Shown here: piece after piece, positions 12,983-33,543 of the stretch | Numbering within the stretch: the first letter of the stretch is position 1 | Layout of the letters: each line of letters begins with the position of its first letter | NCBI RefSeq assembly: GCF_003201595.1 | Contig: NZ_QJJS01000026.1 | Location: 1-39,433 of the forward strand | Source of the DNA: Sphaerotilus hippei | Lineage (GTDB): Bacteria > Pseudomonadota > Gammaproteobacteria > Burkholderiales > Burkholderiaceae_C | Direction: 5' to 3' | DNA: 39,433 nt | Program-made: the position numbers and the translations under genes | Notes under the pieces: model-generated | What the model saw: the letters and a program-made list of their open reading frames with translations, nothing else | Told to the model about the DNA's origin: nothing | Database searches by the model: none

Positions 12983-13006
12983 AGCGATAGTTTGATCGCC
13001 GAGGCG

Positions 13007-13201
13007 TCAGTGCCTGATCAGCTTGAAGCTCACTGGATGGCGGTGGCCGCTGATGCCGGGCACGGCCAACAAGGCCCATTTCAGCTTCTGATCGTCGTCC
13101 AGCGCAATGATCACGCCTGCCACGGTCTGGTTCGGCTCGGCGATCTGTTCTTTCACCTTGCCCATGTCGCGCAGGATCTGGCCGACCACCACGTCCGAGG
13201 T
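13007..13201 (-). pseudogene. C-terminal remnant of a PDDEXK-type (NucS/DUF91-like) nuclease
   Basis: The reverse frame encodes about 64 residues ending in FKLIRH. The part TSDVVVGQILRDMGKVKEQI, then GVIIALDDDQKLKWAL, matches the C-terminal half of PDDEXK nuclease-like proteins, which read (A/T)S-D-x-V-x-GQILRYMGWVKE. The catalytic half with the ExK motif is missing. Upstream the frame runs into the promoter region of the catechol dioxygenase gene and hits a stop at about 13281, so the homologous part ends near 13201. No ATG is available; only a GTG at 13192. I read this as a gene cut by the arrival or rearrangement of the aromatic cluster. Confidence 0.6.
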
Positions 13202-13220
13202 CCGCCGCGCGCCCGAGCCC

Positions 13221-13258
13221 CAACCATCCGGGTATGAGTCGCAGCCCTCAACGGTATT
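13221..13258 (+). promoter_or_regulatory. LysR-type double site of the catechol dioxygenase promoter
   Basis: Two GGTAT elements at 13231 (GGTATGAGTCGCAGC) and 13253 (GGTATTAG) are 22 bp apart. The same arrangement with matching bases between the elements lies in front of the meta-pathway operon (35067-35107). The left half of the first site is degenerate (CAACC instead of CATACC). A possible -10 TTATCT lies 17 bp after TTAGTC. This fits the recognition and activation sites of a CatR/BenM-like LysR activator. Confidence 0.5.
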
Positions 13259-13368
13259 AGTCCACGGCCGGCTCTTTCGTTATCTTGACGCCATGCGGTG
13301 GACACACCGGCCTGCCCTCGAGGCCTCTGCTGTCGACTGGAACACTTCCCCATCAAGAAGGAGACAAC

Positions 13369-14304
13369 ATGGCCATCACTGGCGTCATGCGACCCGGGCA
13401 CATCCAGATCCGCGTGCTGGATCTGGAGATCAGCCGCAAGTTCTATCGCGATGTCGTCGGACTCGTGGAGACCGGCACCGACCCGCAGGGGCGGGTGTAC
13501 TTCAAGTGCTGGGACGAGCGTGACCACAACAGCGTCATCCTGCGCCAGGCCGATCGGGCGGGCGTGGACTTCGTCGGCTTCCGGGTGTCGGACCGGGCCG
13601 CGCTGGATGGCTTCGAGCGTGCGCTGAAGGCGCGTGGCCTGGCGACGGACCGCCTGCCCGCCGGCGAGATGCTGGAGACCGGCGAGCGCCTGCGCTTCAC
13701 GCTGCCGTCGGGCCACGACTTCGAGCTGTATGCCGACAAGACCCACGTCGGCAACGGCCTGGGCCTGGTGAATCCGCCGCCGTGGGGCGCGGACGCCGAG
13801 CGGGGCATCGCCCCGATCCGCTTCGACCACTGTCTGCTCTACGGGCCGAACGTGCAGGAGAACAAGGCGCTGTTCACCGAGGTGCTGGGCTTCCGGCTGG
13901 TCGAGCGCATCCTGGGCCCGAAGGAGGCCGGCGAGCCGGAGCTGGCGATCTTCCTGTCGTGCTCGCACAAGACGCACGACATCGCCTTCGTCGAGCATCC
14001 GGAGCCGGGCAAGCTGCACCACGTCTCGCTGCGCATGGCGTCGTGGGAGAAGGTGCAGCGCGCCAGCGACATCATGGGCATGAACAAGGTGTCCATCGAC
14101 ATCGGCCCGACCCGCCACGGCACCACCCGCGGCGAGACCATCTATGCCTGGGACCCGTCGGGCAACCGCTTCGAGACCTTCGCCGGCGGCTACGAGCCGT
14201 ATCCGGACTGGGAGCCGATCACCTGGACCTTCGACGAGTTCGGCCACGGCCTGGACTTTCCCACCGGCAAGCTGCACGAGAGCTTCCTGGGCGTGGTGAC
14301 CTGA
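13369..14304 (+). CDS. dmpB: Catechol 2,3-dioxygenase (extradiol, meta-cleavage)
   Basis: 311 residues with two vicinal-oxygen-chelate domains. It opens catechol to 2-hydroxymuconic semialdehyde with Fe(II) and O2. The iron ligands are His154 (RFDHCLLYG), His217 (KLHHVSL) and Glu269 (NRFETFAGG), close to His153/His214/Glu265 of XylE. AAGGAGAC precedes ATG 13369 by five bases; the frame is open further upstream but without a ribosome site. It is a single gene here, facing the ferredoxin gene rather than being inside the hydroxylase operon as in Pseudomonas dmp. An LTTR double site precedes it. Sequence style is nearer to the TbuE/TomB/AphC type of betaproteobacteria. Confidence 0.93.
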   Translation: MAITGVMRPGHIQIRVLDLEISRKFYRDVVGLVETGTDPQGRVYFKCWDERDHNSVILRQADRAGVDFVGFRVSDRAALDGFERALKARGLATDRLPAGEMLETGERLRFTLPSGHDFELYADKTHVGNGLGLVNPPPWGADAERGIAPIRFDHCLLYGPNVQENKALFTEVLGFRLVERILGPKEAGEPELAIFLSCSHKTHDIAFVEHPEPGKLHHVSLRMASWEKVQRASDIMGMNKVSIDIGPTRHGTTRGETIYAWDPSGNRFETFAGGYEPYPDWEPITWTFDEFGHGLDFPTGKLHESFLGVVT

Positions 14305-14343: not shown

Positions 14344-14730
14344 TCAGCGCGGGTTCACCGGAGACGGTGAGCCCGCGTTCTGCATCACGGCCTTGCGCAT
14401 GCGGCCGAGCACGCGCAGGCGCAGGTCGCTGCCGGGCTGGATGCAGCAGGCGAGCACGCGGTGGGCCTGTTCGTCCTCCTCGCTGACGTGGCCGCGGCTC
14501 ATGACCCGCTTGACGTAGTCGCCCTCGATCACGGCCACCTTGCACACGCCGCAGCCGCCACCCCGGCAGCCCAGCGGGATGCCCCGGCGCCCCGAGCGGG
14601 CCAGCGCCGACAGCGCGGTTTCCTGCGAGGTGCAGGGGAAGGTCTCGCCGGTGTCCTCGACGGTGACGTGGTGCGGTGCGTCGCCAGCGGCGGTGGCGGG
14701 CAGGGTGGGCAGGCAGCAGGGAGCGGGCAT
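14344..14730 (-). CDS. dmpQ: Plant-type [2Fe-2S] ferredoxin, XylT/DmpQ-like
   Basis: 128 residues. The cluster motif is Cys55-x4-Cys60-x2-Cys63 (LGCRGGGCGVCKV) with the fourth Cys at 94-95 (LACCIQPG). XylT and DmpQ reduce the inactivated ferric iron of catechol 2,3-dioxygenase, so its place end to end with that gene fits. The N-terminus is about 20 residues longer than usual. AAGGA precedes ATG 14730. It is transcribed away from the LysR gene across a 102-base region and towards the dioxygenase gene, so it is not in the same transcript as its client enzyme, an unusual arrangement. Confidence 0.85.
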   Translation of the reverse strand: MPAPCCLPTLPATAAGDAPHHVTVEDTGETFPCTSQETALSALARSGRRGIPLGCRGGGCGVCKVAVIEGDYVKRVMSRGHVSEEDEQAHRVLACCIQPGSDLRLRVLGRMRKAVMQNAGSPSPVNPR

Positions 14731-14832
14731 GGGCAGTCCTTCCAGAACGGCATCGGATTCGGGGTGGCACGGCGGGTGCCGGTGGCGACGAGAATGAGGG
14801 CGGGCCCGATCCGGGCCGACGGACACGAGACC

Positions 14833-15752: not shown

Positions 15753-16823
15753 TCACACCGAGCGGAACAGCGGGCTGCGCACCCGCTGCGCGTCCGCGGC
15801 CGACAGGAACTTCTCGGTGTGGATGTCGCGCTCGAACAGCCTGCCCTGCATCAGCGTGTCCAGGCAGGCGTCGATCATGGCCGGCGGGCCGCACAGATAG
15901 GCCTTGCGACCGCTGAAGTCGCCCTTGAAGTGGCGCGCGGCCACCTCGTGCAGCCAGCCGCGCGGGCCGGTCCAGTCGCTGCCTTCGGGCTCGTGCGACA
16001 GCGCGCTCACGTAGGTGAAGTTCGGGAAGCGCTCGGCCAGCGCGAGGAAGGCCTCGTGCTCGTACAGCTCGGCGCGGTGGCGCTGGCCGTAGACCAGCGT
16101 GATCGGCCAGTCGCGGCCTTCGTGCTGCAGCAGATCGAGGATCATGCTGCGCGGGCTCGACAGGCCGGAGCCCCCGGCCATGAACAGCAGCGGCCGGCCG
16201 TCGCGTGCGTGCACGGACTTGCGCACGAAGAAGCGGCCGTAGGGGCCGGCCAGCGCCAGCGTGTCGCCCACCTGAAGCCGCTCGTGGATGCAGGTGGTGG
16301 CCGCTCCGCCCTGCACGATGCGCACGTGCAGCTCGAGGTCCTGTCCCTGCGCGGGCGGGCTGGCGATCGAGAACGCCCGCCGCCCTTCCACCGAGGGAAT
16401 CTCGAGGTTCACGTACTGCCCGGCCTGGAAGGCCATCGGCCGGTCCAGGCGCAGGTGCACGGCGCGGATCGTGGGCGTGAGCCGCTCCAGGCGGGTCACG
16501 GTGGCGCGGTAGTCCTGCACCGGCAGGTTCAGCGCGTCAGGTTCCTCGTCGAGGTCGGCCTCGATGACGACATCGGACTGCAGGCGCGCGCAGCAGGCCA
16601 GCGTGCGGCCTTCCTCGCGCTCGAAGTCCATCAGCGCGAAGGGCGAGGCGTCGCCGTGCTCGACCTCGCCGTCGAGCACCCGCACCTTGCAGGTGGCGCA
16701 CAGGCCGTGGCAGCAGGCGTGCGGCAGCCAGACGCCCGCGCGCAGGCAGGCGTCGAGGATGGTCTGGTCGTCGTCGACCTCCACGGTCTGGCCCGTGGGT
16801 TCAAGGTGCAGCTGGTAGCTCAT
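15753..16823 (-). CDS. dmpP: Phenol hydroxylase P5 component, NADH:ferredoxin-type reductase
   Basis: 356 residues. The N-terminal [2Fe-2S] domain has Cys37-x4-Cys42-x2-Cys45 and Cys77. Then come an FAD-binding domain with RAFSIASPP and an NAD-binding domain with GGSGLSSPRSMI and LCGPPAMIDA. It passes electrons from NADH to the diiron oxygenase. It is the last gene of the dmpKLMNOP operon, 16 bases after P4, and ends convergent with the LysR gene. Length and order match DmpP/TomA5. Confidence 0.93.
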   Translation of the reverse strand: MSYQLHLEPTGQTVEVDDDQTILDACLRAGVWLPHACCHGLCATCKVRVLDGEVEHGDASPFALMDFEREEGRTLACCARLQSDVVIEADLDEEPDALNLPVQDYRATVTRLERLTPTIRAVHLRLDRPMAFQAGQYVNLEIPSVEGRRAFSIASPPAQGQDLELHVRIVQGGAATTCIHERLQVGDTLALAGPYGRFFVRKSVHARDGRPLLFMAGGSGLSSPRSMILDLLQHEGRDWPITLVYGQRHRAELYEHEAFLALAERFPNFTYVSALSHEPEGSDWTGPRGWLHEVAARHFKGDFSGRKAYLCGPPAMIDACLDTLMQGRLFERDIHTEKFLSAADAQRVRSPLFRSV

Positions 16824-16839
16824 GGTGTGGGCCCCCGGT

Positions 16840-17202
16840 TCAGAACGAGGCGCCGGCCAGGCCGTCGAGGCCCGGGGTGCGCAGGCGCAGGAAGGCCTTG
16901 TGGTCCAGACCGTTGTCGACCAGGCTCAGCTCGGGCCGCGGCTCGAAGGGCTCGTCCGAGCGCAGCCACTGCACGCCGGACCAGTCGATGCGGGCGAAGT
17001 CCGGGTGCTGGCCGAACAGGCCGGGCAGCACCTGCTCGACCAGGGCGCCGAAGGGCATGCCCGGCGGCACGGGGATGCACAGCGGCGTGGCGTACATCAG
17101 GTGGCGGTCCCAGGCGATGTTGATCAGCTGCTGGCCGTGGAACTTGTCGACCGAGTCCTTCAGGTCGCCGTGGTAGCCGGGACGGAGGGCGCGTGTGCTC
17201 AT
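16840..17202 (-). CDS. dmpO: Phenol hydroxylase P4 component (gamma subunit)
   Basis: 120 residues, starting MSTRALRPGYHGDLKDSVDKF, the DmpO/TomA4 family. This is the small subunit of the (alpha-beta-gamma)2 hydroxylase. ATG 17202 was chosen because it has GAGGAGACACCCC directly upstream; the much longer open frame is only read-through of another frame of P3. It lies between P3 (37 bases) and P5. The family has no cofactor of its own. Confidence 0.92.
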   Translation of the reverse strand: MSTRALRPGYHGDLKDSVDKFHGQQLINIAWDRHLMYATPLCIPVPPGMPFGALVEQVLPGLFGQHPDFARIDWSGVQWLRSDEPFEPRPELSLVDNGLDHKAFLRLRTPGLDGLAGASF

Positions 17203-17239
17203 GGGGTGTCTCCTCGTGGGGGTGCGAACGGCGCGGCGC

Positions 17240-18841
17240 TCAGGCCGCCTTGGGCTGTTCCGGAGGACGCGGCGCGTGGCTGCTGGCGGGCTTGCTGGTC
17301 CACTGCGTCCAGTTCCGGGCGTCGACGTGGCCCTCGAGGTCGCCGCCGTCCACGCCGGCCTGGATGCCCATGTAGCGCAGCGCCTCGACCAGCGGGTTGA
17401 AGTCGGGCGATGCCGGGTCGGCATCCGGCAGGAAGTAGCTGCCCTGGTAGATCTGGTGCACCGGCAGGTGGGCATGCACGTACTTCTCGGGTTCGTGGTC
17501 GAAGATGCCCTGGCAGCCGTCCGAGCAGAAGTGGAAACGCTGGCCGAAGTAGTTCGACTCGCGGTGGCAGATCCGGCCCGGGTCCCCCGGCTCGGTGAAC
17601 AGCAGCGGCCACTGGCAGGTCTGGCACAGCTGCGGCAGCGTGGCGTTGACGAAGGGCGTGCCGGCCGCCTCCATGGCGGCCCAGTGCTCGTAGCGGGGGC
17701 GGTACAGGCGGTCGAAGGTCTCGGGGTACTTGGCCGACAGCCACTGCATCTCCTCTTCCGCGGGCAGCCACACGGGGAAACCGGCGGCATGGCGGAACTG
17801 GTAGAAGGTGCTCCACAGCTGGTGGCTGACGTGCTGCTTCTCCTCCACCGTCACCTCGGCGAACTTCGGTGGCCGGATGCCGTAGCGCGCCAGGTCGGCG
17901 AACAGCGCGCCGCCGTTCTGCTCGTAGTAGATCTCCCAGGCCTCGGCCCAGCTCATCACGCGCTTGGGCAGCATGTAGTCCATCATGGCGGCCACCAGGC
18001 TCAGCAGCCGGTAGCCGCGCCAGAACCACTTGTCGATCCAGCCCTGCACGATGGGCACGTTGGCCGGGTCCTGTTCCAGCAGGAACTTGATGACCTCGAT
18101 GCCCAGCGTCATGTGGCGCGCCTCGTCGCTCTGCGCCGAGAAGCCGAAGCTCACGGTGGAGAGGTCGCCGTTGTAGGCCGCACCCGACATCCACGGCATG
18201 AACACCAGGTTGGTCAGCACGTACTCGAACGCGAAGCAGATGCCCACGACGAACTCGAAGGGCCCGGCCGAGACGGCATCCTCGAAGAAGGACTTGGGGA
18301 TGCTCAGGTACCAGGTGCGGTCGTACTGGTGCGGGAACTCCGCCATCCCGGTGAAGTACTTGTTGTAGTGGCTCAGCGCATGAGTCTGCGTCTGGGCATG
18401 GCGCAGTTCGTCGATGGCCTGCATCTGCGCGGCGATGCGCGCGGCCGTGCCCGGAAACTCGCGCCCGATGATGTTGAAGCCCCGGTGCGAGGCGTATTCC
18501 ATGCCGACCACGCCGTTGATGAAGATCTTCAGCGCCTGGATGTAGCGCACGTCGGTGACGTTGAACTGCGCGTTGTTCTGCTGGAAGGCGTCGAGGATGG
18601 CGTAGAGCTTGCGCTCCTTCTCGCCCTGGTACTTCCAGTAGGCGTCCATGGTCAGGCGGAACGGGTCTTCCCAGCGGTCCCAGTCGTGGATCCGGATGCC
18701 CTCGAACTTCACGTGGCGCCAGATGTCGTCCTCGGCCTGGTAGCTGGGCGTCCAGCCCAGGTCGCGCGTGAGCAGCGCGTAGTTCTCCTTGAGGCTGAGC
18801 TTGCGGGGGATGGCGGGCGTGGCTGGCGTGGCGGCGGTCAT
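17240..18841 (-). CDS. dmpN: Phenol hydroxylase P3 component, diiron oxygenase alpha subunit
   Basis: 533 residues (DmpN is near 517). The carboxylate-bridged diiron site is complete: Glu115 (GMEYASHRG), Glu145-x-x-His148 (DELRH), Glu206 (AFEYV) and Glu240-x-x-His243 (DEARH). It inserts one oxygen atom into phenol to give catechol; the (methyl)phenol range depends on the pocket, which I cannot model. Start ATG 18841 follows GGAGACACCC. An Ala/Pro/Thr-rich stretch of 12 residues precedes the conserved part. The C-terminal YHS-like region has CQTCQWPLLF and HFCSDGCQGIF, as in other members. Confidence 0.95.
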   Translation of the reverse strand: MTAATPATPAIPRKLSLKENYALLTRDLGWTPSYQAEDDIWRHVKFEGIRIHDWDRWEDPFRLTMDAYWKYQGEKERKLYAILDAFQQNNAQFNVTDVRYIQALKIFINGVVGMEYASHRGFNIIGREFPGTAARIAAQMQAIDELRHAQTQTHALSHYNKYFTGMAEFPHQYDRTWYLSIPKSFFEDAVSAGPFEFVVGICFAFEYVLTNLVFMPWMSGAAYNGDLSTVSFGFSAQSDEARHMTLGIEVIKFLLEQDPANVPIVQGWIDKWFWRGYRLLSLVAAMMDYMLPKRVMSWAEAWEIYYEQNGGALFADLARYGIRPPKFAEVTVEEKQHVSHQLWSTFYQFRHAAGFPVWLPAEEEMQWLSAKYPETFDRLYRPRYEHWAAMEAAGTPFVNATLPQLCQTCQWPLLFTEPGDPGRICHRESNYFGQRFHFCSDGCQGIFDHEPEKYVHAHLPVHQIYQGSYFLPDADPASPDFNPLVEALRYMGIQAGVDGGDLEGHVDARNWTQWTSKPASSHAPRPPEQPKAA

Positions 18842-18879
18842 GGGTGTCTCCTGTGCTTCGGTTCGGGTGCGAGGCCGCT

Positions 18880-19182
18880 TCAGGCGGCCTTCCACTGCAG
18901 GGTGAACTCGTCGAGGCTTTCCTCGACCTCGCCCGACAGCGAGACGAGGTTGATGTGCAGTTCGCGCAGGTCGAAGTCGCGGCCCAGGTGCGACTCGATC
19001 GACTCGCGCCGCACGACCAGGCGGCCCGGCGCGGTGATCTTCACCATCGCGGGGTACTCGTCGAAGCGGGCCTGGGGGTTGTCGTCGCGGATGGCCTCGA
19101 TGATGGGCAGCGTGTCGTGGTTGGCCTGCAGCGCGATGAACACGGGCTGCTGGCTGACGTCGGGGGCAAGGGCGGTGGTCAT
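18880..19182 (-). CDS. dmpM: Phenol hydroxylase P2 component (MmoB/DmpM effector protein)
   Basis: 100 residues of the MmoB/DmpM family (VFIALQANHDTLPIIEAIRDD, then PAMVKITAPGRLVV). This cofactor-free regulatory protein docks on the hydroxylase and couples electron flow to oxygenation. It sits between P1 and P3 as in the dmp and aph operons. Start ATG 19182, gap 45 bases from P1 and 38 bases to P3. DmpM is about 90 residues, so a short N-terminal extension is present. Confidence 0.92.
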   Translation of the reverse strand: MTTALAPDVSQQPVFIALQANHDTLPIIEAIRDDNPQARFDEYPAMVKITAPGRLVVRRESIESHLGRDFDLRELHINLVSLSGEVEESLDEFTLQWKAA

Positions 19183-19227
19183 GGCGATTCCGGTGAGGTC
19201 TTGACGGAGCGGTTGTGGTGCGCGGAC

Positions 19228-20226
19228 TCAGTCGCGCTGCAGGCCGAGCCGGGCCAGGCGTTCATCCAGCGCCTGGCTGGCCTGCTGCAGTGCGGCGCGA
19301 CCGTTCCGGGGCAGGGCCGTTTCGGCCAGCGCGAGCAGGCCGTGCTCGAAGGCGCGCTGCCACTTCGTCACCCAGCCCGCGATGAGCACGCGGTTGTGCC
19401 CGCTCTCGGCCACGCAGGTCTTGAGCACGGCATCGACCCAGCGGTCGGTCTCGTCCTGCCAGCGCAGAGGGAAGTCCAGCACGCTGGCCAGCACCGGGCC
19501 GTGCGACTCGGCGAAGTCGGCCTCGAAGGACTTCAGCAGCAGCGGGTGCACGAGGCGGTCGGCGACGACCGCCTGCGCGACGAAGGACTCGAACCAGTCG
19601 CGCACGACGAGGGTGTTCTCCACCTCGCGGCGCAGGCCCTGCCAGGCGGCATCGTCCATCCAGGCGGCCTTGGCGCGGGTCAGCGCGGTGCCGGTGTTGC
19701 CGTCCAGCAGCAGGCCGATGCGCGAGACGTGCTGCGCCAGGCCCAGCCGATCCATCATCGCCAGGGTGGCGGCCTGCGTGATGGCCGTGCCCCAGCCGTA
19801 GGCGGCCACCTGGCTCATGCTGGTGTTGGCGCCCCACTCGAAGTGGCGCAGCGGCAGCAGGCACCGGACCAGCCGGTCCTTCGTGTCCTGCGGCAGCGAC
19901 GAGAGCAGGCCGCGCTGCTCCACCATCTCCAGCTGCCGGTCCGTCGCCTCCTGCTGGCGCGCGCGCGCGATCGTGTAGCTGCCGTAGTAGTACTGGCGCG
20001 GATCCTTCAGCGCATACCAGTCGGCCATCTGCACGGCGGTGCGGCGCGGGTCCCAGATGTCGTGCTCGGGATCCCACAGCGGCTTGTAGTGGAAGTTGGT
20101 CTCGGCCTGCAGGTGGTAGGTGCCCTCCTGGTAGCGCGACGCGGGCTTGTCGCCGAAGCGGCGCGCGATGTGGCCGAACGTGTGCCGCAGCGGCTTGACG
20201 TTCTGGACGCGGATCTCGACGGTCAT
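19228..20226 (-). CDS. dmpL: Phenol hydroxylase P1 component (beta subunit)
   Basis: 332 residues of the DmpL/TomA1 family. It shares the ferritin-like fold of the alpha subunit but lacks its metal ligands, and it scaffolds the hydroxylase. Recognisable segments are PLRHTFGHIARRFGDKPASRYQEGTY, RQYYYGSYTIARARQQEA and LRHFEWGANTSMSQ. ATG 20226 follows GAGGAGACCCC; a longer frame extends into the intergenic part before it but without a site. It is 34 bases after P0. Confidence 0.93.
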   Translation of the reverse strand: MTVEIRVQNVKPLRHTFGHIARRFGDKPASRYQEGTYHLQAETNFHYKPLWDPEHDIWDPRRTAVQMADWYALKDPRQYYYGSYTIARARQQEATDRQLEMVEQRGLLSSLPQDTKDRLVRCLLPLRHFEWGANTSMSQVAAYGWGTAITQAATLAMMDRLGLAQHVSRIGLLLDGNTGTALTRAKAAWMDDAAWQGLRREVENTLVVRDWFESFVAQAVVADRLVHPLLLKSFEADFAESHGPVLASVLDFPLRWQDETDRWVDAVLKTCVAESGHNRVLIAGWVTKWQRAFEHGLLALAETALPRNGRAALQQASQALDERLARLGLQRD

Positions 20227-20260
20227 GGGGTCTCCTCTCGGGTGGGACGGGGCGAAACGT

Positions 20261-20527
20261 TCAGTCGCTGAGGCCGGGCCGGCCATAGCGCCACTTGGCC
20301 TGTTCGGCGTCCAGGCGTGCGGCCTGGGCGTCGTCGATCAGGCGCACGCGGTGCATGACGCAGAACGCCTCGAACGCCGGCCGGGGCAGGATCAGGTCCA
20401 CCGAGAGTTCCGGCTCGCCGATGGCGAAGTCGAACTCCACGAAGCCGTCCGGGCGCTGCTGTCGCACACGCACCCAGCACACGGTGTGCGGTTCGGGCAT
20501 GGCGCCGGGAAAGTCGAGCACGGTCAT
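20261..20527 (-). CDS. dmpK: Phenol hydroxylase P0 component (assembly protein)
   Basis: 88 residues of the DmpK/P0 family (CWVRVRQQRPDGFVEFDFAIGEPELSVDLILP). DmpK is needed to assemble active hydroxylase, apparently by helping iron loading, and is not part of the catalytic complex. Start ATG 20527 has CAGGAGACAG upstream. It is the first gene of the operon, 62 bases downstream of the -12 element of a sigma-54 promoter. Confidence 0.92.
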   Translation of the reverse strand: MTVLDFPGAMPEPHTVCWVRVRQQRPDGFVEFDFAIGEPELSVDLILPRPAFEAFCVMHRVRLIDDAQAARLDAEQAKWRYGRPGLSD

Positions 20528-20588: not shown

Positions 20589-20604
20589 TGCGAAGGCCAT
20601 GCCA
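20589..20604 (-). promoter_or_regulatory. Sigma-54 (-24/-12) promoter of the phenol hydroxylase operon
   Basis: On the reverse strand the sequence is TGGCATGGCCTTCGCA: GG and GC are exactly ten bases apart, and it differs from the consensus TGGCAC-N5-TTGCA at few positions. It lies 62 bases before the start of dmpK, giving a leader of about 50 bases. DmpR-type control of dmp operons uses exactly this type of promoter. Confidence 0.75.
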
Positions 20605-20727
20605 CGTGGAGCGAAGTCAGGGTAGATCCGGAGCGGCCGGCGTCTCGAGGCCCGTCGAGGGGGCCCGCCACGACCCCCTGGGCAGGAAGGCCCGAAGAGG
20701 AATCGGGGTTGTCCCTGTCGAAAATCA

Positions 20728-20746
20728 GGCACCCGGCACGGGTGCC
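20728..20746. repeat. Inverted repeat in hydroxylase operon upstream region
   Basis: GGCACCC (20728-20734) and GGGTGCC (20740-20746) flank GGCAC. It lies about 125-140 bases upstream of the -24 element and next to a larger palindrome. It could be part of the activator-binding region. Confidence 0.35.
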
Positions 20747-20750
20747 CGGG

Positions 20751-20780
20751 GCGGGGTTGCGGAAATTTCCGCAGCCCCGC
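20751..20780. promoter_or_regulatory. 30-bp near-perfect palindrome; activator site or terminator
   Basis: The core TGCGGAAATTTCCGCA (20758-20773) is a perfect 16-bp palindrome. The flanks GCGGGG (20751-20756) and CCCCGC (20775-20780) extend it to 30 bp with one mismatched pair (T20757/G20774). It is centred about 190 bases upstream of the predicted start of the hydroxylase transcript, in the range of DmpR/XylR upstream activating sequences, which are also 16-bp inverted repeats. It also lies just after the stop of the Rieske oxygenase gene, so it could instead end that transcript, though no T-run follows. Confidence 0.5.
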
Positions 20781-20791
20781 CAGGGGGGGGC

Positions 20792-21898
20792 TCAGGCCCA
20801 GCGCCGTTCGGCGTCGATCATGCGGCGCAGCAGGCGCCGCACGCGCACCGGGGCCACGTCGCTGGAGATCAGCACCGGGTTGAGCGCGAAGAAGTCCGGC
20901 GTGTTCATCTCGCGCTGCACGGCCTCGATGATCGGGCCGTCCTCGTTGACGAAGGCCCCGTGCATGGCCTGGATCTTCATCGCGTTGAACCCGGCGTCGT
21001 CGACCACGTGGTTGCGGCGCGTGGCGAACCAGTAGTGCGTGTGGCCTTCGCTGGCGGGCGTGCAGGTGTGCACGTCGTACTGGCCCACGGTGTGAGCCAG
21101 GTCGAGCGGCGACGTGCCGTCCTGCACCGCCCCCACCATCAGCCGGATGGTGGCCGGAGCGAACCAGGTCACGTCCAGGAAGTGCCGCGCACCCTGCGCC
21201 GGGTCGGGCAGGAAGTTGGCGAAGATCAGCATCGCCGGCGTCTGCGACCACTCCCAGCGCACGTTGACGGTGTCGTTCTCCTCCTTGACCGGCGGGATCA
21301 GCGGCGAGAGCTGGCCCCGCGTGGTGATGATCTCGCCGTGCACGTGGTCCACGTGCGAGAGGTCCATCACGTTGTCGATGATGAGCTCGTAGTGCGCCTT
21401 CATCGGCATGTAGGTGTGGGCCAGGCCGGTGGCGGGGCCGTCGTCGAGCGGGCCGAAGTCGGGCAGCTTCGACGGGTCGGCGGGCATCTCGCCCATCCAG
21501 ATCCACAGCAGGCCGTGGCGCTCGAGCAGCGGGTAGCTGCGCACCCTGGCCGCCGCCGGGATGTGGCCGTTGCCGTGCGGGTTGTGGGTGCAGGTGCCGG
21601 TGCAGTCGAAGCGCAGCGCGTGGTAGCGGCAGACCACGTCGTCACCCTCGCGCCGGCCCATGCTCAGCGGCACGAAGCGGTGCGGACAGCGGTCGTGCAG
21701 GGCCACGGCCGTGCCGTCGGCCTTGCGGTAGAGCAGCACCGAGGTGTCGAGCAGCGTGCGCTGCATCATGCCTTCGGTGGGCACTTCGGTGGACAGCGCG
21801 GCCGCATACCAGGTGTTGAGCAGGTAGGGCGTGTCGGGCTTGCCGATCGGGTTGCCGCTGGGGTGCAGGGTGATGGTGCGGGTTTCGGGGGCGTTCAT
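20792..21898 (-). CDS. Rieske non-haem iron oxygenase, VanA-like
   Basis: 368 residues. The Rieske [2Fe-2S] domain has Cys71-x-His73 and Cys90-x2-His93. The mononuclear iron site is around DNVMDLSHVDHVH, with His182 and His187. Layout and length fit the VanA/phthalate-type single-subunit oxygenases, which demethylate methoxy-aromatics or cleave aryl ethers. With the reductase gene directly upstream it forms a two-component system. Start ATG 21898 has AGGAGACCCGAG before it. It is transcribed from a sigma-54 promoter before the reductase gene. Its place inside a phenol cluster suggests that it makes phenol or catechol from a methoxy- or phenoxy-compound; the substrate cannot be read from the sequence. 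Confidence 0.85.
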   Translation of the reverse strand: MNAPETRTITLHPSGNPIGKPDTPYLLNTWYAAALSTEVPTEGMMQRTLLDTSVLLYRKADGTAVALHDRCPHRFVPLSMGRREGDDVVCRYHALRFDCTGTCTHNPHGNGHIPAAARVRSYPLLERHGLLWIWMGEMPADPSKLPDFGPLDDGPATGLAHTYMPMKAHYELIIDNVMDLSHVDHVHGEIITTRGQLSPLIPPVKEENDTVNVRWEWSQTPAMLIFANFLPDPAQGARHFLDVTWFAPATIRLMVGAVQDGTSPLDLAHTVGQYDVHTCTPASEGHTHYWFATRRNHVVDDAGFNAMKIQAMHGAFVNEDGPIIEAVQREMNTPDFFALNPVLISSDVAPVRVRRLLRRMIDAERRWA

Positions 21899-21956
21899 CT
21901 CGGGTCTCCTGTCGTGGTCGTGAAAACCGGCGTCGGGCCGGCGGGTGGGGCGGCTC

Positions 21957-23009
21957 TCAGGCGGCCGCTGCAAGGTCCGGTCGCCACCCCAGCGGGGCGA
22001 CGACCAGACGGGATGAGGTCGCGCGCGAGCAGCACGGCGTGAAGCGGTCGCCGCGGGCGCGCTCGGCGTCGGACAGCACCAGGTCGTGGTGTTCGGGCTG
22101 GCCGTCGATCACCTGCAGGCAGCACTGGCCGCAGATGCCCTGCTCGCAGGACAGGTCGACCGGCAGGCCGGCGCCCTGGAGCGCCTGTGCGGCGCTCTCG
22201 TGCGCGGCCACGCGCAGGGTGCGGCCGGTGGGCGCCCACAGCAGCTCGAAGCTGCCGTCCGGGCCGCTTCCGCCCGCGGCCGCAGCCGTGCGGACCGGGC
22301 TTTCGGCCGGTGGCGCGAACCGCTCGATGACGACCCGCTCGTCGGCCCAGCCCAGCGTGCGGGCGGCCTGCTGCACGGCGGCCATGAAGCCCCCCGGCCC
22401 GCAGGCGCAGACCAGCGTGTCCTGCGGCGCGCGCTCGAGCAGCGTGCGCAGGTCGAGCGCCGGCCTGGCGGCTGGCCCCGGGGCGGGGATGTCGGCGTGC
22501 ACGCTCACGCGGTCGGCCCACGCGGCGGTGGCCAGGCGTTCGGCGAAGGGCAGGCGGTCCCGGCTGCGCACGGCGCAGTGCAGCGCGAAGCTGCGGCCGT
22601 CGGCCCAGAGCGTCTCGGCCATGGACAGCAGCGGCGTCAGGCCGATGCCCCCGGCCAGCAGCAGCACATGCGGGGCGTCCCGCAGCGCGAAGAGGTGGCG
22701 CGGCGGGCCCACCCGCAGCGTGTCGCCGACCGCGACGTGGCGGTGCAGCCAGAGCGAGCCGCCGCGGCCTTCGGCCTCGCACTGCACGGCGATCAGGTAG
22801 CGGTGCCGATCCGACGGGGCGTGGCACAGCGAGTACGAGCGCACGCGGCCGGAGCCGTCGGGCAGCTCGACGTCGATGTGCGCGCCGGCCTCGAACGGAG
22901 GCAGCGGGCCGCCGTCGTCGCGACGCAGCTCGAAGGCGGCGATGTGCGGGGTGAGTTCGTCGCGCCGGGTGACACGCAGCGACAGCCGGTCCGTGGTGTG
23001 GCTGGACAT
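21957..23009 (-). CDS. VanB-like FMN/[2Fe-2S] oxygenase reductase
   Basis: 350 residues in the phthalate-dioxygenase-reductase order: flavin domain (RSYSLCHAP), NAD domain (GGIGLTPLLSM, CACGPGGFM), then a C-terminal plant-type ferredoxin domain with Cys288-x4-Cys293-x2-Cys296 and Cys326-327. It supplies electrons from NADH to the Rieske oxygenase 58 bases downstream. ATG 23009 has GAGAGGAGACGAAC in front and lies 38 bases after a -12 element. The segment from about 240 to 260 is an Ala/Gly-rich linker. A longer upstream frame lacks a site and would cover the promoter. Confidence 0.87.
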   Translation of the reverse strand: MSSHTTDRLSLRVTRRDELTPHIAAFELRRDDGGPLPPFEAGAHIDVELPDGSGRVRSYSLCHAPSDRHRYLIAVQCEAEGRGGSLWLHRHVAVGDTLRVGPPRHLFALRDAPHVLLLAGGIGLTPLLSMAETLWADGRSFALHCAVRSRDRLPFAERLATAAWADRVSVHADIPAPGPAARPALDLRTLLERAPQDTLVCACGPGGFMAAVQQAARTLGWADERVVIERFAPPAESPVRTAAAAGGSGPDGSFELLWAPTGRTLRVAAHESAAQALQGAGLPVDLSCEQGICGQCCLQVIDGQPEHHDLVLSDAERARGDRFTPCCSRATSSRLVVAPLGWRPDLAAAA

Positions 23010-23046
23010 GTTCGTCTCCTCTCGTGCTTGTGGTGCCTGGATGCTT

Positions 23047-23062
23047 TGCAACCGGCGGGCCA
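23047..23062 (-). promoter_or_regulatory. Sigma-54 (-24/-12) promoter of the Rieske operon
   Basis: The reverse strand reads TGGCCCGCCGGTTGCA, with GG and GC ten bases apart, TGGC at -24 and a perfect TTGCA at -12. The predicted transcript start is about 25 bases before the reductase ATG. The region is shared with the divergent sigma-54 activator gene. Confidence 0.75.
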
Positions 23063-23132
23063 GCGCGCGCACCGGCATTCACGCTAGTGCGGATGGCGTG
23101 ACCGGCCTGCGGTGTTCATGATCTGCAGCAAT

Positions 23133-23193: not shown

Positions 23194-24963
<1,770 letters not shown>

Positions 24964-24987: not shown

Positions 24988-26787
<1,800 letters not shown>

Positions 26788-27528: not shown

Positions 27529-27950
27529 GCCCGGACTCCCGCCTCGGCGCGGGCCCGGATCTCGGTGGCGCGCAGCACGCTGGCGGGCGTGCCGCCGATG
27601 GCCCAGTGCTCCGGCGGGATGGACCGGCAGCCGCCGCGCACCTGCTGGCGCTCCACGCCCAGCGTGCGCACGAGCAGGTCGGTGAAGCCGGCCAGCAGCT
27701 GCTGGCCGGCCTCCACCGGCCGGCCCTCGAGCACGAGGAAGTGGAACCAGGGGGCCGCCGCACCCCCCTCGCTGACCAGCCGGCCCCCGATGGCGACGTG
27801 CTGGGGCCGGTGCAGGTGCACGGCCACGCGCACGCGCTCGATCGGGCATTGCAGCACCTCGGCGTAGAGGTGGCTGCTGGCCAGCACCAGTTCGGCGATC
27901 TGCTCGTCGGTGTGCCGGCCTTCGGTCAGGTGGTACTCGAGGATGGGCAT
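27525..27950 (-). CDS. Fused (double) tautomerase-superfamily protein
   Basis: 141 residues beginning M-P, so Pro1 is available as the catalytic base of the 4-oxalocrotonate tautomerase superfamily. Two homologous beta-alpha-beta units can be seen: about 2-57 (EYHLTEGRHTDEQIAELVLA ... VAIGG) and about 72-125 (FHFLVLEGRPVEAGQQLLAG ... WAIGG). This is the fused layout found in cis-CaaD/MSAD-like enzymes. The second unit has no N-terminal Pro. Its substrate is unknown; the same operon already has a normal 4-oxalocrotonate tautomerase. It follows the MetA-like gene by 15 bases and overlaps the next gene. Confidence 0.7.
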   Translation of the reverse strand: MPILEYHLTEGRHTDEQIAELVLASSHLYAEVLQCPIERVRVAVHLHRPQHVAIGGRLVSEGGAAAPWFHFLVLEGRPVEAGQQLLAGFTDLLVRTLGVERQQVRGGCRSIPPEHWAIGGTPASVLRATEIRARAEAGVRA

Positions 27951-27965
27951 GGCGGGCGCTCCGGA

Positions 27966-28868
27966 TCAGAACTTCATGACGGCCTTGAGCCAGACGGCCG
28001 TGCCCTCGGTGTGGTAGCGGGCGCTGGTCTCGCGCAGCACGCGCGCCTCGAGCGACAGGCCGCTCGGGTGCTGGTAGTGCACCGCCGGGCCGAAGGCGTG
28101 GACGCGGCTGCGCCAGCCGTCGCCGACCACCGCGCCGCTGCGCTTGTCGTCGGTGGTCTGCTGCACCAGCGTGCCCTGCAGGCCGACCTGCCACTGCGCG
28201 TCGAGGCGCCAGCCGGCGTTCCAGTCGGCGTGCAGGTACTGGCCCGAGGTGTAGTCGGTGTCGCTGTTGCGGCCATTGAAGCTGTAGGTGATCTTGGTCG
28301 ACAGGTCCACCGACGGCGTCAGGTAGGACACGGCCAGCAGCGGGCGCACCGTGGTGATGTTGTTGCCGGTGTTGGCCATGCGCGTGGCCTCGTAGCTGCC
28401 GGTGGGCACGACGAAGTCCAGCGCGGCGGCGGCGTGCCAGTCGGTCCAGTGCCAGGTCACGAAGGGGCCGAACTCCAGGTCGCCCAGGCCGGTGCGGCTG
28501 TCGCTCGCGCCGGCCGCGTCGACCTTCAGCCTGACCAGCGGCAGCACCGCATGCGCCCCGACGAGTCCGCCCATGAAGGGGATGTCGGTGACATGCACCA
28601 CGCGGCCCACCAGAGCATCGGCGCTGACCTTGAAGCCGGGGACCATCGATTGGCCGCCGCCGTCGTTGAAGCGGTCGGCCTGGTAGTGGTTGAAGTAGAA
28701 CAGGCCGTAGGTGCCCGGGGGCGGCAGGGCGCCGGCCATGAAGCCCTCGGCCCCGGCGGCGGCGGTGTTCAGGCCGCCTTCGGTGGCCTGGGCCGACAGG
28801 GCCAGGGCCGCGAGGCCGCAGGCGACCAGGGGCTTCAGTCGAGCCCCGACGGAAAGTGCGTTCTGCAT
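27966..28868 (-). CDS. MetA/SphA-type outer-membrane protein of phenol clusters
   Basis: 300 residues. A signal peptide (PLVACGLAALALSAQA) is followed by GLFYFNHYQADRFNDGGG and many amphipathic beta-strands, ending in Phe as outer-membrane barrels do. This fits the family labelled 'putative MetA-pathway of phenol degradation' (Phenol_MetA_deg/SphA), found beside meta-cleavage genes and thought to be a substrate-uptake barrel; activity has not been proven for most members. GAGAGGAGACACCAC precedes ATG 28868. It lies 65 bases after the SDR gene in the operon. Confidence 0.8.
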   Translation of the reverse strand: MQNALSVGARLKPLVACGLAALALSAQATEGGLNTAAAGAEGFMAGALPPPGTYGLFYFNHYQADRFNDGGGQSMVPGFKVSADALVGRVVHVTDIPFMGGLVGAHAVLPLVRLKVDAAGASDSRTGLGDLEFGPFVTWHWTDWHAAAALDFVVPTGSYEATRMANTGNNITTVRPLLAVSYLTPSVDLSTKITYSFNGRNSDTDYTSGQYLHADWNAGWRLDAQWQVGLQGTLVQQTTDDKRSGAVVGDGWRSRVHAFGPAVHYQHPSGLSLEARVLRETSARYHTEGTAVWLKAVMKF

Positions 28869-28933
28869 GTGGTGTCTCCTCTCGCGGCGGTGTGCTTGTG
28901 ATGGGGTCGGGGCGCCGCGCCTCCCCGGGTGGA

Positions 28934-29698
28934 TCAGGGCAGGCCCTTGCGGCGTCCGGCGTCCATGAAGAGCGTGCCGCCGGCCAGCGCATCGGCGTGC
29001 GGGTCGAGCAGCAGGCCGATGGCCCAGGCGATCTGCTCCGGCGTGGTGAAGGCGCCGATGGCCGACTCGGCACGCATGGCGTCGAGCACGGCTTCGGTGT
29101 CCAGGCCGTCACGCTCGCCGCGTGCGGTGGCGACACGGCGCAGGCGCTCGGTGTCGGCCGGGCCCGGCGCGATCAGGTGCGAGGTCACGCCCCGCGAGCC
29201 GCAGGCCCACGAGAGCTGGCGCACCACGTTGGCCAGCGCGGCGTTGGCCACGCCGGCCGTGGCCGCATAGGCGCTCGGCTCGAAGCCGTAGTGGCCGCCG
29301 ATGGCGACCAGCCGCGAGCCGCGCACCAGCCGGTCGTCCACCGCCCGCACCAGGCGCAGCAGGCCGCCGACCTTGATGTCGACGGCGTCGCTCAGCGCCG
29401 CCAGCGGCACGTCGAGCACGCCGCCGGCCGTGGCCACGCCCGCGCCCTGCACGACCATGCGCACCGGGGCCGCGCCGCAGGCCTGCACGGCCCGGCGGAT
29501 GGCCTCGATGGCACGGTCGTCGGCGATGTCGGTCGCGCAGGGCCGGATGCCCGGCACCTCGGCGGCGAGCGAGGCCAGCGCATCGGCGCTGCGCGCCACG
29601 GCGATGACCTGCAGGCCGGCCGCGTCCAGCCGGCGCGTGATGAGGCGGCCCATCGCGCCGGTGCTGCCGACGACGACGGCGAGTTCCCGGGTGCTCAT
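28934..29698 (-). CDS. SDR-fold protein with degenerate active site
   Basis: 254 residues of the short-chain dehydrogenase/reductase family: cofactor loop GSTGAMG (11-17), QGAG (84-87) in place of NNAG, and [11 protein letters not shown] after the active-site region. The catalytic Tyr-x3-Lys is not intact: Tyr144 is followed by AATA, so Ala148 replaces Lys, and the usual Ser is Gly (AIGG). It may have lost dehydrogenase chemistry or use another arrangement. Its start overlaps the aldolase stop by four bases, so it is translated with the meta pathway. No standard meta-pathway step needs it. Confidence 0.75.
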
Positions 29699-30750
29699 GG
29701 CCGGCTGCCCGGGCCGCGCGCCTTGGCCATGGTCATCGCGGTGTCCATGATCATGTCCTCCTGGCCGCCGATCATCTTCAGGCGGCCCAGCTCGACCAGG
29801 AGCTCGCGCGCCGGCACGCCGGTGCGTTCGGCGGCGCGGCGGGCGTGCAGCAGGAAGGTCGAGTACACGCCGGCGAAGCCCAGCGTCAGCGACTCGCGGT
29901 CCACGCGCACCGGCCGCTCCATCAGCGGCACGATCAGGTCCTCGGCCACGTCCATGATGCGGAACAGGTTCACGCCGGTCTCGATGCCCATGCGCTCGCA
30001 CACGGCGGCAAACACCTCCAGCGGCGTGTTGCCCGCGCCGGCGCCCATGCCGGCCACCGAGGCGTCGATGCGGCTGGCGCCGGCCTCGATCGCGGCGATG
30101 GAGTTGGCGATGCCCATGCCCAGGTTGTGATGGCCGTGGAAGCCGATCTCGGTCGCGGGGTCGAGCACCTCGCGCAGCGCACCGACGCGGTCCTTCACGT
30201 CCTGCGGCAGCATGAAGCCGGCCGAGTCGGTGACGTAGATCGTCTGCGCGCCGTAGCTCTCCATCAGCTTGCCCTGCGCGGCCAGGCGCTGCGGATCGTT
30301 GAGGTGGGCCATCATCAGGAAGCCCGTGGTGTCCATGCCCAGCTTGCGGGCGAAGGCGATGTGCTGCGGCGAGGTGTCGGCTTCGGTGCAGTGGGTGGCC
30401 ACGTGCACGCTGCGGGCGCCGCAGTCGAAGGCCGATTGCAGCTCGCGCATCGTGCCCAGGCCGGGGATCAGCAGCACGGAGACCCGGGCCTGCTTCATCA
30501 GCGGGCAGACGGCGCTCAGGTACTGCTCGTTGCTGGCCAGCGCGAAGCCGTGCTGCAGCGAGTTGCCCCCCAGGCCGGCGCCGTGCGTGACCTGGATCAG
30601 CGGCACGCCCGCGTCGTCGAGCGCGGTGGCCACGCGCACCATCTCCTCGACGCTGATCTGCTCGCGCCTGGCGTGCATGCCGTCGCGCAGGCACATGTCG
30701 TGCAGCAGGACCTTGCGGCCCCGGAGCGAAGATTCCTGTGTGTTCATCAT
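29695..30750 (-). CDS. dmpG: 4-Hydroxy-2-oxovalerate aldolase
   Basis: 351 residues of the DmpG/HMGL-like aldolase family. It splits 4-hydroxy-2-oxovalerate to pyruvate and acetaldehyde. The TIM barrel carries the metal and catalytic residues Arg22-Asp23 (CLRDGMHA) and His205/His207 (GFHGHHNLG), which match Arg17-Asp18 and His200/His202 of DmpG. The C-terminal communication domain passes acetaldehyde to DmpF. ATG 30750 overlaps the dmpF stop by four bases; a second ATG at 30747 is possible. Confidence 0.95.
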
Positions 30751-31679
30751 GCGGCCTCCACCGGCTGGAGCCGGATCTTCCCGGCGAGGATCTCTTCGGC
30801 GAACATCTCCGCGGTGCGCGTGGCCGCCGCGGTCATGATGTCGAGGTTGCCGGCGTATTTCGGCAGGTAGTCGCCCAGGCCCGCCACTTCCATGAACACC
30901 GAGACCCGATGGCCCTGCGGCACCTGGTCGAACACCGGGCCGTTGACCAGCCGGTAGCCGGGCACGTACTGCTGCACCGCCTCGATCATGTCGAGCACGG
31001 AGTTCGTCACGCGCTGTTCGTCCGGGGCTTCGTCGGTCAGGCAGTAGATGGTGTTGCGCATGATCAGCGGCGGGTCGGCCGGGTTGATGATGGCCAGCGC
31101 CTTGCCCTTGCGGGCGCCGCCCACCCGCTCGATCGCGGAGGACGTGGTGTAGGTGAACTCGTCGAGGTTGGCGCGGGTGCCCGGGCCGATCGACTTCGAC
31201 GACAGCGTGGCGATGATCTCGGCGTAGGCCACCGACTGGATGCGCGAGACGGCGTGCACGATCGGGATCGTGGCCTGGCCGGCGCACGAGATCATGTTGA
31301 CGTTCATCTCGACCTTGTCGGTGTGCTCGCGCAGGTTGACCGGCGGCACGCACAGCGGGCCGATGGCCGCGGGCGTCAGGTCGATCATCAGCACGCCCAG
31401 CGCGTTGAGCTTGCGCGAGTTCTCGGCATGCACATAGGCGCTGGTGGCGTCGAAGGCGATCTCGATGCCGTCCTCCAGCACGTGAGGCAGCAGGCCGTCC
31501 ACGCCGTCGGCGGTGGTCTTCAGGCCCATCTCGCGGGCGCGCGCCAGGCCTTCGGACTGCGGGTCGATGCCGACCATCCAGACCGGCTCCAGCACGGGGC
31601 TGCGGCGGATCTTGTAGATGAGGTCGGTGCCGATGTTGCCGGACCCGATCAGGGCGCAGCGGATCTTGCGGGGGGGCAT
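30747..31679 (-). CDS. dmpF: Acetaldehyde dehydrogenase (acylating)
   Basis: 310 residues. The NAD loop is [10 protein letters not shown] (11-20) and the catalytic Cys is Cys132 ([12 protein letters not shown]), the same number as in DmpF of Pseudomonas CF600. It turns channelled acetaldehyde, NAD+ and CoA into acetyl-CoA in a complex with DmpG. It is fused by overlaps to both neighbours (TGATG with dmpI, ATGA with dmpG), so expression is coupled. Confidence 0.95.
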
Positions 31680-31912
31680 CAGAGGGTCTCCGTCCGGGGT
31701 TGTGCGGCGCCGGCCTGGCGCTGCTGGGCACGCATCTCGGCGGTCACGCCGCCCACGGAAAACTCTTCCGTGCTGTGCTCGGTGATGAGGATGCGCACGG
31801 TGTCAAGCGGGCAGTCCAGCGCGCGCGAGGCGGCCTGGGCGACCTCGGCGGCCACGCGCCGCTTCTGCTCGATGGTGCGGCCGGTCAGCAGGTGCATTTC
31901 GATGATGGGCAT
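31679..31912 (-). CDS. dmpI: 4-Oxalocrotonate tautomerase
   Basis: 77 residues, beginning [13 protein letters not shown]. Counting from Pro as 1, the catalytic residues Pro1, Arg11, Arg39 and Phe50 are all at the positions known for 4-OT. It isomerises 2-hydroxymuconate to 2-oxohex-3-enedioate. The tail is about 14 residues longer than the 62-63 of the classic enzyme. It lies between dmpH (28 bases) and dmpF (one-base overlap). Confidence 0.93.
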
Positions 31913-31940
31913 GGGTTCTTCCTGCGGGGGTGGGTGCGGT

Positions 31941-32735
31941 TCAGACGAAGCGCATGCCGACGCTGCCCAGCGCCTGGAAGCGTGCGGTCACGCAGTCGCC
32001 GGGTTTCACGGCCACCGCCTCGGTGATGCCGCCGCTCATGACGAAGCTGCCCGCGGGCAGCGTCTCGCCCAGTTCGTGCAGCACCTTGACGAGCAGCGCC
32101 ACGGCCTCGGCCGGGTGGCCCATCACGGCGGCCGACGAGCCCATCGCGACGGCCTCGCCGTTCTTCTCGAGCACGACGCCGAGCGAGGCGAGGTCGATCT
32201 GCCCGGGCCGGAACGCCCGCCCGCCGGTGACGAAGCGTGCCGACGAACCGTTGTCGGCGACCACGCTGGGCAGGTCGAACTTGAAACCCGAGAAGCGCGA
32301 GTCGATGATCTCGACGGCCGGCACGACGAAGTCGGTGGCCGCCATCACGTCCTCGCGGGTGCAGTGCGGGCCGGACAGCGCGGTGCGGGTCACGAAGGCC
32401 ACCTCGCACTCCACGCGTGGATGGACCAGGTCGTCGGTGCGGATGGCCGAGGCCTCCGGGCGAGCCATGTCGGCCATCAGGAAGCCGATCGACGGCACCC
32501 GCACCCCCATCTGGTCCATCTTGGCCTTCGAGGTCAGGCCGGCCTTCCAGCCCACCTGGCGCTGCCCTTCGGCCAGCCAGCGGCGGCGCAGCGCCTGCTG
32601 CACGGCGTAGCCGTCGTCCAGCGTCATGCCGGGGAAGTCATCGGTCAGTTTGGGGATGGCGCGGGCGCCGCGTTGCGCGGCCTCGATGCGGTCGGTCAGC
32701 AGGCCGATCGCCTCGTCGTTCAGGGTCACGTTCAC
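31941..32735 (-). CDS. dmpH: 4-Oxalocrotonate decarboxylase
   Basis: 264 residues of the hydratase/decarboxylase family. It removes CO2 from 2-oxohex-3-enedioate to give 2-hydroxypenta-2,4-dienoate, in complex with the hydratase. Segments VGWKAGLTSKAKMDQMGV and HPRVECEVAFV (metal-binding Glu residues) are typical. No ATG is present at the proper place; GTG 32735 overlaps the hydratase stop (GTGA) and gives the 264-residue length of DmpH. Paralogous to the next gene upstream. Confidence 0.92.
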   Translation of the reverse strand: MNVTLNDEAIGLLTDRIEAAQRGARAIPKLTDDFPGMTLDDGYAVQQALRRRWLAEGQRQVGWKAGLTSKAKMDQMGVRVPSIGFLMADMARPEASAIRTDDLVHPRVECEVAFVTRTALSGPHCTREDVMAATDFVVPAVEIIDSRFSGFKFDLPSVVADNGSSARFVTGGRAFRPGQIDLASLGVVLEKNGEAVAMGSSAAVMGHPAEAVALLVKVLHELGETLPAGSFVMSGGITEAVAVKPGDCVTARFQALGSVGMRFV

Positions 32736-33529: not shown

Positions 33530-33543
33530 GTGGTTTCCCTCCT

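Follow-up and report, generated by a model that had tools for sequence, protein, structure and literature searches.

Organization of the gdmBA locus

The 39,433-base contig NZ_QJJS01000026.1 of Sphaerotilus hippei (assembly GCF_003201595.1), analysed as a whole and referred to here as the window, carries on its minus strand a pair of genes that, judging from sequence, very probably encodes the known guaiacol O-demethylase GdmAB, and beside this pair a divergent regulator gene. The gdmA-like gene (20792..21898, minus) encodes a Rieske oxygenase of 368 amino acids, and the gdmB-like gene (21957..23009, minus) a reductase of 350 amino acids of the phthalate dioxygenase reductase (PDR)/VanB type, which is 56% identical to its Sphaerotilus orthologue. 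Both are preceded by a sigma-54-type -24/-12 promoter, TGGCCCGCCGGTTGCA, at 23047..23062 (minus); position 20792 is the final base of the oxygenase gene and position 23062 the first base of the promoter site. An earlier note, made from the letters of the window, had described a VanA/VanB-like pair upstream of dmpKLMNOP, and its coordinates proved to be right.

Divergent from gdmB lies REG1 (23194..24963, plus), a sigma-54 activator of the XylR/DmpR family that carries Arg100, His108 and Trp170 and for which we propose the name GdmR; this regulator was not mentioned in the earlier note. Its start codon at 23194 was picked by alignment, while the frame is open from 23164. REG1 is convergent with REG2 (24988..26787, minus), a second DmpR-family activator, with His100. 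Read 5' to 3', the minus strand thus presents the -24/-12 promoter, gdmB, gdmA, a second sigma-54 site, dmpKLMNOP and dmpQ.

The oxygenase groups with GdmA

The oxygenase showed the Pfam domains Rieske and VanA_C, and the reductase an NAD-binding domain followed by a C-terminal Fer2 domain, its best solved relatives being 6kbh, a reductase fused to a P450, and 2pia, the phthalate dioxygenase reductase. Among 28 matched PDB sequences, the top match of the oxygenase was 7QWT with 514 bits, followed by the dicamba demethylase DdmC with 206. A table of PMC12445004 names 7QWT as the GdmA of Rhizorhabdus wittichii RW1. A passage of PMC11837543 describes the demethylation of guaiacol to catechol by the GdmA of Novosphingobium aromaticivorans, and a passage of PMC12997858 relates that GdmAB of Cupriavidus necator N-1 enabled growth of Pseudomonas putida on guaiacol. 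With a homologue from a Sphaerotilus plasmid the window protein shared 77% identity, and with the homologue on pBB1 of C. necator N-1 63.5%; we took the latter for the characterised N-1 GdmA on the basis of strain and similarity.

The earlier note had suggested a phylogeny against VanA, PobA, TsaM and LigX types. In a tree of 96 rows, 90 GdmA-like rows, including the window protein, the pBB1 homologue and 7QWT, were split from the others with a Shimodaira-Hasegawa-like approximate likelihood ratio test (SH-aLRT) value of 99. Outside this clade were DdmC and five remoter plasmid homologues (36.8-42.7% identity to the window GdmA). This was a quick tree with long outgroup branches, and its rows included no TsaM, LigX, PobA or proven VanA. 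Residues C71, H73, C90, H93, H182, H187 and D320 were invariant in 11 of 11 oxygenases; we take the first four to be the Rieske ligands (CxH...CxxH) and the last three to be the facial ligands of the iron. In its closest solved relative, its clade, its Rieske and iron-ligand residues and its PDR/VanB-type reductase partner, the oxygenase agrees with GdmA, and sequence, phylogeny and neighbourhood all support its assignment to GdmAB. VanAB proper was tried as an identity for the pair and rejected on tree placement and match scores. The same genome encodes a second Rieske protein (L002, G000:C4:162726-162980), which is 40.6% identical to the window GdmA and is possibly a vanillate demethylase.

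Sigma-54 promoters and transcription units

The promoter upstream of gdmB contains both TTGCA and GG-N10-GC, as the earlier note had said, and with 13.5 of 14.5 it was the top -24/-12 site on either strand of the window. The second score, 13.0, was shared by a site 5' of dmpK and a site at 14765-14780. The promoter is conserved in relatives: 43 of 45 gaps between regulator and gdmB contained a site scoring at least 13.0 (shuffle p ≤0.01), and the remaining two scored 12.5 and 11.5. Among these 45 gaps, two genomes are represented twice and one species by two strains, and both the site weights and the mononucleotide shuffles were our own choice.

The genes downstream of gdmA resemble dmpKLMNOP, which encode a multicomponent phenol hydroxylase (15753..20527, minus; identified by tblastn with Sphaerotilus orthologues, 63-80%), and the ferredoxin gene dmpQ (matched range 14368..14706, minus; tblastn with Sphaerotilus orthologues). 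The sigma-54 site 5' of dmpK, TGGCATGGCCTTCGCA (20589..20604, minus), had a p value of 0.004, and a similar site was found at the dmpK position in four of four syntenic relatives (L019, L023, L031 and L032; p ≤0.024). Between gdmA and dmpK, directly 3' of the gdmA stop codon, lies a very stable double hairpin (20690..20800, minus; fold z -5.24) without a T-run, and no intrinsic terminator was found when we looked for one between these two genes in the window. The gap between gdmA and the phenol hydroxylase genes widens to 1.6 kb in Sphaerotilus natans (L031) and 2.3 kb in Leptothrix (L032), with reading frames on the opposite strand (11078-12680 and 11093-13399, respectively). By eye, one of these frames resembles an oxidoreductase and L032 also holds a TetR-like one, though in such GC-rich DNA some of the frames will be due to chance.

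Since each of the two gene groups has its own sigma-54 site, a hairpin stands between them and the gaps of relatives hold opposite-strand frames, we dropped a single gdmBA-dmpKLMNOPQ operon as the default. The gdmBA genes have their own promoter and adjoin the phenol operon, as the earlier note had it, but they are probably not in one operon with dmpKLMNOP.

An activator site upstream of gdmB was less evident. The DmpR consensus site was matched at no more than 10 of 16 positions in the 9 loci listed of the 42. A CATGAAA block was enriched: 15 of the 42 gaps contained it, while shuffled sequences gave a mean of 1.1. A block common to the aligned Sphaerotilaceae gaps, GATCATGAAC (23114..23123, minus), is a possible upstream activator site. 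L019, L031 and L032 each have two copies of such a block, spaced 34 bases apart. The site stays tentative because a single clear related copy is all that the window shows. A palindrome, GTTGAGnnCTCAAC, was seen near the gdmB start in eight other loci (four of Zoogloea, one of Parazoarcus and three from metagenome-assembled genomes).

The divergent regulator has an altered sensor pocket

REG1 has the domains expected of a XylR/DmpR-family member, namely XylR_N, V4R, Sigma54_activat and HTH_8. An AlphaFold model of its sensor domain (mean predicted local distance difference test score 80.8) best matched the sensor crystals of MopR (5KBG, E 5.8e-20) and PoxR (5FRV, E 2.9e-19). Pocket positions are given in DmpR numbering as found in passages of PMC7264223 and PMC10715001. 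According to these passages, DmpR holds the phenol hydroxyl with two residues, His100 and Trp128, and His100 is common to the phenol sensors DmpR, PoxR and MopR (PMC7264223). The zinc cysteines 149, 175 and 183 are numbered from His100 and Trp128 on 6IY8, whereas the DmpR paper prints 151, 177 and 185.

We built a tree of 107 regulators without the pocket columns 100, 108 and 170. REG1 fell into a branch of 52 rows (SH-aLRT 100), all of them from loci that were fetched through gdmA; 50 of the 52 lay within 2.5 kb of gdmA and the other two at 2.7 and 8.2 kb. The counts exclude L024, L026 and L027 (genomes read twice), L033 (a second Sphaerotilus sulfidivorans strain), L118-L124 (seven family rows from gdmA genomes) and L028, from the separate genome G172, whose regulator has Arg, Asn and Trp and would have been the 53rd row of the branch. 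Position 100 was Arg in 49 rows of the branch and Ala in three (the gammaproteobacterial regulators L064, L068 and L088), but His in all 55 rows outside it. Position 108 was Asn in 42, His in nine and Ser in one; among the other 55 rows, Val was found in 46 and His in one. Trp170 occurred in 51 of the 52 and in none of the 55, while Trp128 and the four zinc ligands were retained throughout the branch. Two changes of the Arg state are required on this tree.

Because REG1 has Arg at position 100, although Trp128 is kept, we did not file it with the phenol sensors. The replacement of the His residue that grips phenol suggests a methoxyphenol sensor. REG2 lies outside the REG1 branch and keeps both His100 and Trp128; by domains, pocket residues and tree placement it is likely to be the phenol sensor of the cluster.

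A separate DmpR-type branch of ten rows comprised regulators from Sphingomonadales and Kordiimonas with His100 and Gly149, one zinc cysteine having been lost. At Sphingomonad and Kordiimonas gdmA loci (L021, L066, L074, L075, L082 and L109), a TonB receptor was seen together with this different type of DmpR-like regulator.

REG1-type sensors accompany gdmA in genome surveys

At 43 of 80 gdmA loci, a DmpR-type regulator on the other strand started within 700 bases of gdmB or gdmA, and at 54 of 80 it was within 4 kb. Searches of family, order and class genomes with the REG1 sensor provided checks that were not selected via gdmA. They score first-look candidates only, so that members may be missed, and the cuts for gdmA were E 1e-80 (family) and 1e-90 (order and class). 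In the family, gdmA was found in seven of 299 genomes, and matches to the REG1 sensor of at least 224 bits occurred in the same seven only, the next best score among the 77 matching genomes being 189 bits. Among 30 family loci, the seven from gdmA genomes had Arg100 and Trp170, while the other 23 had His100 and no Trp170. In the class, gdmA was present in two of 274 genomes, the window's own and G886, and of eight matching genomes these were the sole two with a sensor match above 163 bits. The G886 regulator has Arg, Asn and Trp at the three positions and lies 1.4 kb ahead of gdmA, on the other strand. The order survey adds little, since the own gdmA was the only one in 399 genomes; the next sensor matches, of 187 and 180 bits, both had His100. 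Across 33 loci, the divergence of GdmA and that of the sensor were correlated (r 0.73; 0 of 2000 permutations). From the arrangement and the surveys, REG1 is probably the dedicated regulator of gdmBA.

Neighbourhoods of gdmA and the catabolic genes of the window

The window also contains a gene for a catechol 2,3-dioxygenase (13369..14304, plus; 61% to the Sphaerotilus orthologue) and, at 27549..35004 (minus), lower meta-pathway genes together with a Phenol_MetA_deg protein, recognized by Pfam and Sphaerotilus orthologues. The lower genes are for a hydroxymuconic semialdehyde dehydrogenase, a hydratase, a decarboxylase, an acetaldehyde dehydrogenase, an aldolase, a short-chain dehydrogenase/reductase and a tautomerase-like protein. 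The formaldehyde genes frmA and fghA stand side by side on another contig of the same genome.

In a 303 kb plasmid record of S. sulfidivorans, the order is REG2, REG1, gdmB, gdmA and dmpKLMNOPQ, with frmR, frmA and fghA further on, beyond dmpQ. On pBB1 of C. necator N-1, gdmB-gdmA-frmA-fghA adjoins another multicomponent monooxygenase. The position of frmA-fghA next to gdmA on pBB1, and in the same cluster in Sphaerotilus, fits a demethylase that releases formaldehyde. Of 80 gdmA loci, 21 had phenol hydroxylase genes within the fetched flanks (17 of the 57 whose flanks reached 9 kb or more in both directions), in Zoogloea, Xanthobacter, Polynucleobacter, Psychrobacter and Oceanobacter, among others, and the co-location therefore recurs. 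Among the loci compared, L019, L023, L031, L032 and L033 resemble the window in that gdmA is followed within 2.5 kb by phenol hydroxylase genes on the same strand. A catechol 2,3-dioxygenase gene was within 10 kb at 17 of 80 loci only.

Some other arrangements were encountered. Tandem or nearby second gdmA copies were seen in L025 (9881-10912 and 13914-14930, where they flank a regulator on either side), L036 (10001-11041 and 11635-12342), L049 and L085; such paralogues may have diverged in substrate. In the Moraxellaceae loci L022, L104, L105, L106 and L107, gdmA precedes two separate reductase matches; the plasmid that bears L022 is mobilizable and also carries mobR and phenol hydroxylase.

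Discussion

We consider it quite likely that gdmBA is a guaiacol O-demethylase that feeds the meta pathway and is activated by a dedicated, methoxyphenol-sensing REG1. We infer the cofactors, the substrate, the effector and the pairing of regulator and promoter as follows. GdmB and GdmA would form a two-component Rieske demethylase for guaiacol (2-methoxyphenol). In GdmB, the flavin and the [2Fe-2S] cluster would take electrons from NAD(P)H and hand them on to GdmA, with its Rieske cluster and mononuclear iron. GdmA would hydroxylate the methyl group, releasing catechol and formaldehyde. Catechol would enter the catechol 2,3-dioxygenase and dmp lower pathway of the window, and formaldehyde would probably be cleared by the frmA-fghA pair elsewhere in the genome. 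Transcription of gdmBA would start from the sigma-54 promoter, most likely activated by REG1, whose altered pocket (Arg100, His/Asn108, Trp170) would recognise a methoxyphenol and not phenol, while dmpKLMNOPQ, with its own sigma-54 site, would most likely be run by REG2. What the sequences show is the identity of the genes (from homology and clade), the conservation of the promoter, the linkage of regulator and gdmA, and the pocket substitutions. The earlier note had seen the pair as feeding either the phenol hydroxylase or the catechol dioxygenase from a guaiacol-like compound. The guaiacol part of this idea agrees with the GdmAB assignment, as does entry at the catechol dioxygenase; the product of guaiacol being catechol, however, the phenol hydroxylase would be bypassed. 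Similarly, the note's sigma-54 promoter was found as described, but this promoter would most likely answer to REG1 and not to the phenol regulator.

Several observations weigh against this interpretation. No DmpR-type regulator was within 4 kb at 26 of 80 gdmA loci (some of which are cut by contig ends), nor was one found within 15 kb at the C. necator N-1 pBB1 locus at the cut used, so that a REG1-type regulator is not universal. Regulators beside gdmA in Sphingomonads keep His100, and three of the 52 REG1-branch members have Ala, not Arg, at this position. Conversely, L156, a regulator outside the REG1 branch from a class genome with no gdmA match, has Arg100, with Phe128 and Phe170, and Arg100 alone is therefore not diagnostic. 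The correlated divergence of GdmA and sensor could stem from shared descent alone, and frmA was within 10 kb in only four of 80 loci. Moreover, structure entry titles state that MopR was crystallised with catechol and with o-cresol, so REG1 might respond to the product or to a different phenol.

The last point leads to the idea that REG1 senses catechol or another downstream product instead of guaiacol. The MopR entry titled with catechol would favour this, and an Arg offers a possible partner for a second hydroxyl or for a phenolate; nevertheless we hold it to be unlikely, as the tie of the clade to gdmA points to the substrate of the demethylase and a catechol 2,3-dioxygenase gene is close to so few gdmA loci. 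An equally low probability attaches to gdmBA being part of the phenol regulon, with both units switched by REG2, or by REG1 as a second phenol sensor, and with an Arg/Trp pocket devoid of meaning. Two sigma-54 sites and two DmpR-like proteins do share one cluster, and phenol hydroxylase genes do flank a quarter or so of the gdmA loci. Yet strong matches to the REG1 sensor were confined to gdmA genomes in the surveys, His100 is lost in 52 of 52 rows of the branch, and L034, L038, L043, L048 and L051 carry a REG1-type regulator with no phenol hydroxylase match in the fetched flanks.

As for the enzyme, GdmAB of the window might act mainly on another methoxy- or alkoxy-aromatic, such as a 4-alkylguaiacol, guaethol or 3-methoxycatechol, or on anisole, which would yield phenol for the adjacent hydroxylase. 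The close succession of gdmA and phenol hydroxylase genes in the window and the five loci named with it would suit such a role, and 63.5% identity to the N-1 homologue leaves space for a shifted range, but we find it improbable to the same degree as the two preceding alternatives: the oxygenase shares one clade with 7QWT and this homologue, a catechol dioxygenase belongs to the same cluster, and REG1 has kept the Trp128 that holds the phenol hydroxyl in DmpR. By far the least probable is a vanillate-type demethylase VanAB misread as GdmAB. The VanA_C domain and the VanB-like reductase would be compatible with it, whereas the L113 protein, which has VanAB-like surroundings (an aromatic acid transporter and a VanB-type reductase), is 42.7% identical and outside the GdmA clade, in a comparison that did not include a proven VanA; L002 could fill the vanillate role in this genome.

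With guaiacol demethylation under its own sensor as the favoured reading, a wider history can be proposed, for which we see the chances as evenly divided. The GdmR subfamily would have arisen once from phenol sensors, remodelled its pocket (Arg100, Asn/His108, Trp170) for guaiacol or related ortho-methoxyphenols and spread together with gdmBA through beta-, gamma- and alphaproteobacteria. In Sphingomonads, a different DmpR-type branch would have been taken on for this gene module's gdmA.

The founding GdmA paper reportedly appeared in Chem Catal in 2022. With the enzyme described since then, gdmBA is less new than the earlier note had thought: the pair would be a further member of a known enzyme, and the dedicated GdmR-type sensor the part for which we found no report. 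No guaiacol or methoxyphenol sensor of the DmpR type was described in the titles or abstract starts of the literature searched, most subscription journals lying outside that search. Lignin breakdown yields guaiacol as a main product, and demethylation is often a bottleneck in converting lignin aromatics to chemicals. If our interpretation is correct, a natural methoxyphenol sensor in the best-studied family of phenol sensors would be a ready biosensor, and the REG1 branch a natural experiment on pocket specificity, with one clade and its main substitution at the residue that holds phenol. A lignin module would have been set beside a phenol pathway, apparently without joining the phenol operon.

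The oxygenase falls in the same clade as the GdmA proteins of C. necator N-1, N. aromaticivorans and R. wittichii RW1 (7QWT) and has the same Rieske and iron-ligand motifs. The N-1 plasmid locus likewise has gdmB followed by gdmA, but it continues with frmA-fghA and another monooxygenase where the window has dmpKLMNOPQ and a divergent DmpR-family regulator. REG1 shares domain order, sensor fold, zinc ligands and Trp128 with DmpR, MopR and PoxR, from which its branch differs at positions 100 (Arg/Ala), 108 (Asn/His/Ser) and 170 (Trp). To our knowledge, the gdmBA module is absent from the classical dmp, mph and aph phenol clusters. The window shares with these clusters dmpKLMNOPQ, the catechol 2,3-dioxygenase, the lower meta pathway and a His100 regulator, and adds to them the gdmBA module and a second regulator.

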